This document shows, in pieces, positions 55,664 through 60,718 of a stretch of DNA of 64,000 nucleotides (positions are counted from its first letter, which is position 1; each line of letters opens with the position of its first letter). The stretch comes from Peltaster fructicola. Lineage: Eukaryota > Ascomycota > Dothideomycetes. The DNA lies in NCBI GenBank assembly GCA_001592805.2, contig CP051143.1, positions 2,170,001-2,234,000 on the forward strand. Reading direction: 5' to 3'. A model generated the notes under the pieces. That model was not told the origin of the DNA. It worked only from the letters and a program-made list of their open reading frames with translations, and did not search any database. The translations under genes and the position numbers were made by a program.

Positions 55664-56399
55664 ATGACTGATTCGAGGATAACAGTAGGTGGAGCTGAGC
55701 GTATCGCAGATACGAGCAAGATGTACCAGGGTAAGCGATACGCAACGTCGGCTGGGAATTCTAATCACCTCGACAGACGCATTCAAGGACGACCCTGCCT
55801 TTCGTTATATGCTACAGCATATGAGCGATGGTGAGCGTTACGCATACCTGTATCGTTACTTCACCAAGCTTCTGAAAGCCGCAGCTCTGAATCATGGCAT
55901 CTTTGAGGAGATCGAGTACTTCTCAAGCGCGACTGTCGTACTACCTCCTGGGAAGCGCCTTGACAATCCATTGACGTTACTCCCTGCTGGCCTCGCGAGC
56001 TTCCTATGGGAAGTCGGTCTCCGAGGTTGTGCTCGTATGCTCTTCGAGTTTCCCAGTAAGACCGGTGCGGCGAAGAAGAAAGCCTTGAAAGGTCACAAGC
56101 GATACTGGTACCTGTTCTCTATTGCGACTGCTCCTGCATGTGAGGGTCGTGGTCTAGGCTCTGCTATGCTGAAGTCCATACAAGCACGAGCTACAAAGGA
56201 AGGTCTCCCAGTCTGGCTTGAGTCGACCACGGAGAAGTCCATGAGAGTCTATCTCAAGAATGGATTCGAAGTGGTTGATACCATAATCTTCGGCAAGGGC
56301 AACACTGCTGCCGATGGTAGAGCTCAATCAAATGGCGCAGGGATCACGTTATGGGCCATGGTGTGGTGGCCACCTAGAGATAGCGAGCTGAACAAATAG
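55664..56399 (+). CDS. GNAT-family N-acetyltransferase, 229 aa
   Basis: Exons 55664-55730 and 55777-56399, with a 46-nt intron (GTAAGC...GACAG). The spliced start reads MTDSRITVGGAERIADTSKM. Acetyl-CoA motif A is YLFSIATAPACEGRGLGSAML, with the R-G-x-G-x pattern as RGLG. Motif B is LPVWLESTTEKSMRVYLKNGFEVV, as in fungal small-molecule GNATs. The acceptor substrate is unknown. Cytosolic by absence of targeting signals. The neighbouring cupin is divergent and shares the promoter region. Confidence 0.88.
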
Positions 56400-56728: not shown

Positions 56729-57773
56729 TCAGAGCTGGACCAGGTTCTGCGGATTGCCTGCAGCGAACGCCTCGAAGTTGGATTTGATGGTCTTCGTGGT
56801 GCCGTCCAGTGTTGCAGTACTGTACCACGCAATATGTGGTGTCAGAATCAGATTTGGGATGGTTGAGTCTATCAGTGGTGAATCTCCTGCTCCCGCTGGC
56901 TCATGCTCGAACACATCGATACCAGCTCCTGCGATCTTCTTCTCACGAAGTGCGGTAGCCAACGCTGCTTCGTTGACGATACCTCCGCGACCAACATTGA
57001 TGACAAAAGCTGTTGGGTTGATCGTCGAGAGTTCAGCGGCACCAATCATGCCTCGTGTGCTGTTATCCAGTGGCGCAACCACGATCAGCACGGTAGCTTG
57101 ACGTAGTGCGTCCTCGAACAACACTCGGCCAGGGCGAGCCTCGCTGGCTCCTTTGCGTTCGGCGACGATGACCTTCATACCCAGTGCAGTGCCAATCTTC
57201 TCAATGTTTCGACCAAGAGCACCATATCCGATGATGCAGCTGTCTTTGTCAGTATGGCTTCAGCTATCCCAGCAGCAGCTTACTGCTCAGCGTCAGCAGG
57301 GTCAAACATCAAACAATACACCATACCAGCGTCTCTTCTCCGTTTGTGCGTGTTGGAGGACCAAACTTCACATGTACCGAACGCAGTTCTGGCCAACTCT
57401 TGCCATCCATCACCAATTCGTGCATCTCAATGATCTTCCTACGCAGAGCATAGTACAGTGCAAAGGCATGTTCGCTCACACTAGCAGTGTTTTGAGCTGG
57501 GACGTGGCATAGCTTGATGCCTCGCTTCTTCAATGCTGCATGAGACACATGATCGGTGCCTGTGCCATTACAATGGACCATCTGCAAGTTTGGCGCGGCA
57601 TCAATGATCTGGTCAGTGACAGGTGTACCAGATGTCATAATCATCGTCGCAATTGCAAGCTTGTCAGCGTCAGGCGCCTGCGCGTTAGGTGTAATGGTGA
57701 CATCGTGATCGAAGTTGAACTTGGGCGGATTGACCCATGCGTCCATCGTGAGTAGGTGGTGCTTGTGAGACAT
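56729..57773 (-). CDS. D-isomer-specific 2-hydroxyacid dehydrogenase, 318 aa
   Basis: Minus strand, exons 57773-57328 and 57239-56729, interrupted by a nested intron (separate entry). The Rossmann motif IIGYGALGRNIEKIG follows directly after the junction. Catalytic residues are visible in INVGRGGIVNE (Arg), GIDVFEHEPAG (Glu) and LTPHIAWYS (His), so the active-site triad is complete. Ligand-side NGTGTDHVS and ASVSEHAFALYYALRR precede it. Length and motifs fit glycerate/hydroxypyruvate or phenylpyruvate-type reductases using NAD(P)H; the exact substrate is open. Start at MSHKHHLL, the first ATG in frame. Correct frame requires two splicing steps. Confidence 0.92.
57240..57327 (-). other. Stwintron (intron within an intron, D1,2 type)
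   Basis: On the minus strand a 44-nt intron (GTATGG, CTGAC, GAGCAG; 57326-57283) lies between the G (57327) and the U (57282) of another donor. Removing it assembles GTAAGC, and a second 44-nt intron with ACTGAC and ACAG is then excised. Exon 1 ends in phase 2 and exon 2 gives 1 base, so the reading frame is restored. A single 87-nt intron from GTATGG to ACAG would shift the frame. Confidence 0.75.

Positions 57774-60718
<2,945 letters not shown>

Follow-up and report, generated by a model that had tools for sequence, protein, structure and literature searches.

A predicted 88-nt [D1,2] stwintron in a D-2-hydroxyacid dehydrogenase gene of Peltaster fructicola

Within a 64,000-nt stretch of the Peltaster fructicola genome (the window), we identified an 88-nt interval on the minus strand, 57327-57240, that very probably is a [D1,2] stwintron in a gene for a D-2-hydroxyacid dehydrogenase. 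The interval parses as two nested 44-nt introns (1 + 44 + 43 nt), the inner one splitting the donor of the outer one between nucleotides 1 and 2. We favor this reading because, among the splicing options that we enumerated, only this nesting restores the spacing characteristic of the protein family. The genome sequence used here comprises 18,987,130 bases in five contigs, the window lying in contig 5; the published assembly is described as 18.99 Mb in five chromosomes, with a median intron of 50 bp and 1.36 introns per gene (PMC7181583).

With both introns removed, the exons encode a 318-aa protein containing the sequence TLCIIGYGALG. Pfam detects the catalytic and NAD-binding domains of the 2-Hacid_dh type with matches well above the cut-off, and the NAD-binding match (105-286) crosses the exon junction. 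The best match among solved structures, 5tx7, has a spacing ahead of the Rossmann glycines identical to that of the stwintron product. In exon 1, a positive coding score is confined to the dehydrogenase frame. Since both exons are open throughout and the Pfam matches are so clear, decay of the gene is unlikely. The other matches in the P. fructicola genome, its dehydrogenase paralogues, are at most 42% identical. Three protein searches, listing 120, 120, and 49 matches, did not include the annotated protein of P. fructicola itself among those listed; one match that is 99% identical (P0169) begins downstream of the junction and is uninformative about it.

At the motif level, each unit is complete: the inner intron combines GTATGG, GCTGAC, and CAG over 44 nt, and the outer one, once the inner is gone, combines GTAAGC, ACTGAC, and CAG over 44 nt. 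Splicing directly from GTATGG to the last CAG (87 nt) leaves one G, shifts the frame and reaches a stop after 12 codons, and excision of the inner intron alone exposes a TAA immediately. A sequence-only reading had proposed a stwintron at 57240..57327 with these lengths and motifs, a frame broken by simple splicing, a new donor formed by G and UAAGC, a frame restored ahead of TLCIIGYGALG, and a CTGAC and a CAG for each unit; every one of these points agrees with what we found. An [A2,3] stwintron would require a G right after the last acceptor and was rejected, the next base being C (57239). By intron definition, the U2 spliceosome would pair the nearest splice sites, so that the inner intron would leave first. 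G1 would then meet TAAGC, creating the donor GTAAGC, and a second reaction would excise the outer intron and join CT to C in the codon for Leu149, yielding the intact dehydrogenase. What we infer from these data is which intron leaves first, where the branch points lie, and that the relatives have the nesting too.

Table 1. Features of the interrupted dehydrogenase gene, in window coordinates.
Feature	Position	Strand	Description and basis
Exon 1, D-2-hydroxyacid (glycerate-type) dehydrogenase	57328..57773	minus	ATG at 57773, ends ACG CT; translation, coding score, homologues
G1, nucleotide 1 of the split outer donor	57327	minus	sequence
Inner intron, 44 nt	57283..57326	minus	donor GTATGG (57326-57321), acceptor CAG (57285-57283)
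Putative inner branch site GCTGAC	57292..57297	minus	branch A 57293, 6 nt ahead of CAG; motif only
Outer intron remainder, 43 nt (44 with G1)	57240..57282	minus	TAAGC at 57282-57278, acceptor CAG (57242-57240)
Putative outer branch site ACTGAC	57248..57253	minus	branch A 57249, 5 nt ahead of CAG; motif
5′ arm of a possible near-terminal 8-bp stem, GGTATGGT	57320..57327	minus	contains the inner donor; fold of the 88 nt
3′ arm of a possible near-terminal 8-bp stem, GCCATACT	57251..57258	minus	overlaps the outer branch site; fold of the 88 nt
Exon 2	56729..57239	minus	starts C TGC ATC ATC GGA (CIIGYGALG), stop codon 56731-56729; translation

The decisive comparison is between the products of the possible splicing events and the protein family. 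Around the site we found 16 in-frame single introns with GT-AG or GC-AG ends, all of which the sequence-only reading had passed over. None of the 16 produces EETL-C-IIG. The three nearest to the stwintron reading run from GTGTAT to CAG (82 nt, two residues more), from GTATTG to AAG (76 nt, four more), and from GCTGGT to CAG (91 nt, one fewer). Nested GT-AG pairs are far more numerous, with 134 in frame; five leave both ETL and IIGYG intact in the stretch compared, and the sole pair yielding EETLCIIG is the one with G1 at 57327 and two 44-nt introns, which supports the stwintron interpretation first put forward. The spacing that it restores is found in 21 of the 23 homologues readable by pattern among 120 listed matches, and in all 39 readable proteins of the 48 new ones retrieved with exon 1. 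The two exceptions, P0002 from Cryoendolithus antarcticus and P0003 from Rachicladosporium, carry six and three additional residues exactly at the junction. Against a profile built from 26 homologues, with P0002 and P0003 left out, the stwintron product scored 484.3 bits, followed by the products of the 82-nt single intron (479.9) and of two introns flanking a 2-nt exon (478.7) and by four others at 478.5 or less; the margin of 4.4 bits over the next-best product is small.

Introns were called in the window and a further 200 kb of the P. fructicola genome by coding potential and splice signals. A first filtered set (n = 54) was noisy, a reversed control yielding 12. We kept a set of 34 introns with higher scores and a length of at most 75 nt, which excludes long introns by construction; all 34 are predictions selected partly on splice-site score. 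Their median length is 50 nt and their minimum 43 nt, G5 is present in 31, and the acceptors are CAG (19), TAG (9), and AAG (6), with no GAG. CTGAC is the commonest branch motif (19 introns), and the donor GTATGG is used once. The donor of the inner unit scored above 6 of the 34 and its acceptor above 15; for the outer unit, the corresponding counts were 22 and 10. The inner branch A lies 10 nt from the intron end, inside the range of the called introns, and one called 45-nt intron ends in CTGACAAAAACAG, similar to the end of the outer unit, CTGACAAAGACAG. The two 44-nt units thus look like the introns called in the P. fructicola genome. By an early splice model, the inner unit (9.17) ranked below the single introns of 82 nt (10.45) and 87 nt (10.31), a result that counts against the stwintron reading. 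We attribute the preference of this poor model for the rivals to the noisy first intron set. When the middle of the interval was dinucleotide-shuffled with both distal ends fixed, a comparable junction of inner acceptor and outer donor together with two well-placed branch sites arose in 53 of 20,000 shuffles.

The single 82-nt intron, from GTGTAT (57321) to CAG (57240), competes best with the stwintron. It would need one splice only and keeps the frame, it comes second by profile score, and the early model placed it above the inner unit. We nevertheless consider it very unlikely: its donor lacks the G5 nearly universal among the called introns and outranks only 2 of the 34, its product (EETL-VC-CIIG) gains residues absent from 21 of 23 homologues, and the internal CAG|TAAGC junction, together with the branch site that goes with it, would become one of the rare coincidences counted in the shuffles. 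An error in the assembly is about as improbable. Were there a single true G at 57327-57326, a plain 87-nt intron (CT|GTATGG..CAG) would give the same protein; long reads underlie the assembly (PMC7181583), and one base would account for the phase conflict. A run of two G is short, however, and an intron of 87 nt is long beside the published median of 50 (PMC7181583). The internal junction would again be coincidental, and three exon-1 fragments on other contigs have a GTN codon after Leu or Met, so that a single intron preserving the family spacing is precluded in these as well.

Still smaller is the chance that one of the other two single introns is used or that the gene is decaying. The GTATTG..AAG and GCTGGT..CAG introns are both in frame, and AAG closes 6 of the 34 called introns, but the GTATTG donor outranks 1 of the 34 and the GCTGGT donor none, and the branch A of the former would lie 5 nt from the end as against a called minimum of 7; decay conflicts with the open exons and strong Pfam matches noted above. 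Least probable of all are two ordinary introns of 41 nt (ending GAG) and 44 nt separated by a 2-nt exon (CA), which the sequence-only reading had judged to be in frame but weaker than the stwintron, and rightly so: the second intron is strong (12.02), but the product (EETL-H-CIIG) has one residue too many and loses in profile score, the GAG acceptor scores below those of all 34 called introns, and 41 nt is below their minimum of 43.

The stwintron reading also accords with related proteins, which were compared as proteins alone, through gene-call fragments that run into introns. Twelve of the fetched proteins carry the Rossmann motif among residues 1-60. Four (P0025, P0031, P0032, and P0173) open with a short tail of unrelated sequence that leads into CIIGYG; on visual inspection, the remaining eight have a different motif or look bacterial in type. 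All four tails could be encoded by CTRAC, 3-9 nt, HAG, one base, and TGY, an arrangement possible at 1 of 817 Cys sites in the rest of the fetched set, and an ACTRAC-type footprint of the outer branch site fits all four as well; the tail of P0032 reads HTDFDRC where the P. fructicola sequence gives HTDKDSC. The last acceptor looks to be in phase 2 in all four. On the other side of the junction, the exon-1 fragments end in EETLV (P0121), EETLVSSA (P0123), and EETMVR (P0125). Each of the three allows a phase-0 G|GTRNG donor and none allows a single intron with the family spacing, although each also permits a phase-2 donor that would add residues. At the protein level these footprints agree with a stwintron, and single introns leaving extra residues fit them too. 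Read in this way, the phase conflict of P. fructicola appears to recur in the relatives at the corresponding codon. In two cases, the conflict probably lies inside one gene, because the contigs of P0121 and P0031 (36,214) and those of P0123 and P0032 (5,802) are equal in size.

The database protein P0173 (Cladosporium fusiforme, Q7P37_000558) begins at exon 2 (MLTFFDSCIIGYG). Exon 1 seems to have been lost from this gene model, which is what a gene caller unable to join the two exons would produce. The additional residues of P0003 come after LYVQC, readable as CTG TAT GTN CAR TGC, and judging from these residues they would represent a retained GTATGT donor; P0002 and P0003 may both be gene models distorted around a complex intron. 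Many other relatives' exon-1 and exon-2 fragments end right after GYGALG, which suggests that other species have an intron elsewhere, a few codons further downstream. Peltaster is placed in Dothideomycetes incertae sedis, and Cladosporium and Cryoendolithus belong to the Cladosporiaceae (NCBI taxonomy).

Stwintrons of the [D1,2] type are already well described, and what is new here is the compactness of the predicted element (88 nt) and its apparent conservation among relatives; we claim neither a size record nor a first report. The sequence-only reading had called twin introns known in fungi but rare. The first part stands and the second needs tempering, as more than 1500 [D1,2] stwintrons are reported from the Hypoxylaceae, including 117 in Hypoxylon sp. 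CO27-5 (PMC9024468). Like those uniquely occurring stwintrons, the P. fructicola element has an inner U2 intron between nucleotides 1 and 2 of the outer donor, with canonical donors, branch sites, and acceptors, and a one-step splice between the distal sites leaves a G behind and puts the protein out of frame. Its branch-to-acceptor gaps are likewise short, 6 nt (inner) and 5 nt (outer) against distances clustering at 7 and 6 (PMC9024468). It differs in size, the shortest of the 117 in Hypoxylon being 114 nt (PMC9024468), and in its donor-to-branch gaps of 23 and 24 nt, the primary motif of the Hypoxylaceae search having demanded at least 25 nt between the donor and branch hexamers. It also lies in a dothideomycete and in another gene, and is predicted from sequence. 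Next in length among the descriptions that we consulted comes a 140-nt complex intron of Lipomyces (PMC7138796).

Sequence-similar [D1,2] stwintrons of Xylariales share the geometry and a possible near-terminal stem that joins the distal splice sites, but they occur as repeated copies whose 10-nt elements are fully complementary, whereas P. fructicola offers one pair of 8-nt arms with two G-U pairs (PMC12403724). The [D5,6] stwintrons of a reticulon-like gene are also donor-disrupted and occur in Dothideomycetes, having been confirmed in Helminthosporium solani; in contrast to the P. fructicola element, their inner intron lies between donor nucleotides 5 and 6, the gene is a different one, and they are experimentally confirmed (PMC6616335). 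A [D2,3] stwintron is described from Botryosphaeriales, again Dothideomycetes (PMC5639578). Among the open-access papers searched, none mentions a stwintron together with Peltaster. The words "hydroxyacid" and "glycerate" are absent from the main texts of PMC9024468 and PMC12403724, and "hydroxyacid dehydrogenase" is absent from that of PMC5639578.

If transcripts confirm the prediction, P. fructicola would possess a stwintron whose two introns are close to the shortest in use in this compact genome, and which is probably near the lower size limit, and the published motif search, with its donor-to-branch minimum of 25 nt, would miss compact stwintrons in streamlined genomes. The age of the stwintron could be traced at the junction codon through the Dothideomycetes, and the element may account for database proteins that look odd or truncated at the junction, such as P0173, P0002, and P0003.

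When the 88 nt were folded alone, the first 8 nt paired with GCCAUACU over the outer branch site and the central CAG|UA was placed inside a hairpin; adding 10-nt flanks altered the terminal pairing. None of four folds exceeded its shuffles in stability (z = -0.56, -0.14, 0.22, and 0.84), and pairing of all eight nucleotides, at least six of them by Watson-Crick pairs, to the last 30 nt occurred in 155 of 20,000 shuffles. The near-terminal stem is weak evidence. Conceivably, an ancient [D1,2] stwintron has been retained at a single codon in Peltaster, Cladosporiaceae, and other relatives and serves as a splicing switch for the dehydrogenase, the near-terminal stem and the CAG|UAAG hairpin balancing two-step splicing against an unproductive 87-nt excision with a premature stop, an idea that we hold to be unlikely.

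Genome-wide, the motif of an inner intron followed by an outer donor was not enriched, with 20 matches against 31 in a backwards control, and neither were two further stwintron patterns (9 against 25 and 33 against 42). We saw no sign of many stwintrons in the P. fructicola genome. As the motif by itself is not enriched and proves nothing, the case for the dehydrogenase rests on frame and homology. Among the 20 scored matches of the first pattern, the coding score was positive for a simple intron in eight and for a stwintron in four, and two combined a positive stwintron score with a negative simple score. The dehydrogenase locus (L028) was one of these and had the top stwintron score of the 20 (6.6, against -24.7 for simple splicing and -68.0 for read-through). 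A further match, L015, was rejected as a candidate, inspection suggesting an ordinary intron with a stop codon immediately after it. The other of the two, L016 (G000:C2:3407626-3407683, minus, and ~60 nt downstream), is a second candidate [D1,2] stwintron, with GGTATGA..ACTGACAG forming a 52-nt inner intron and TAAGT..CTAAC..AAG continuing a 62-nt outer one. It scored 2.1 as a stwintron and -41.8 by simple splicing; visual inspection suggests that in-frame single introns are possible there, and Pfam gave no match for the product.

The dehydrogenase gene is flanked by two genes on the plus strand, a GNAT acetyltransferase gene at 55689-56399 and, at 58496-60718, a gene of the peroxidase family, which we take to be catalase-peroxidase-like.
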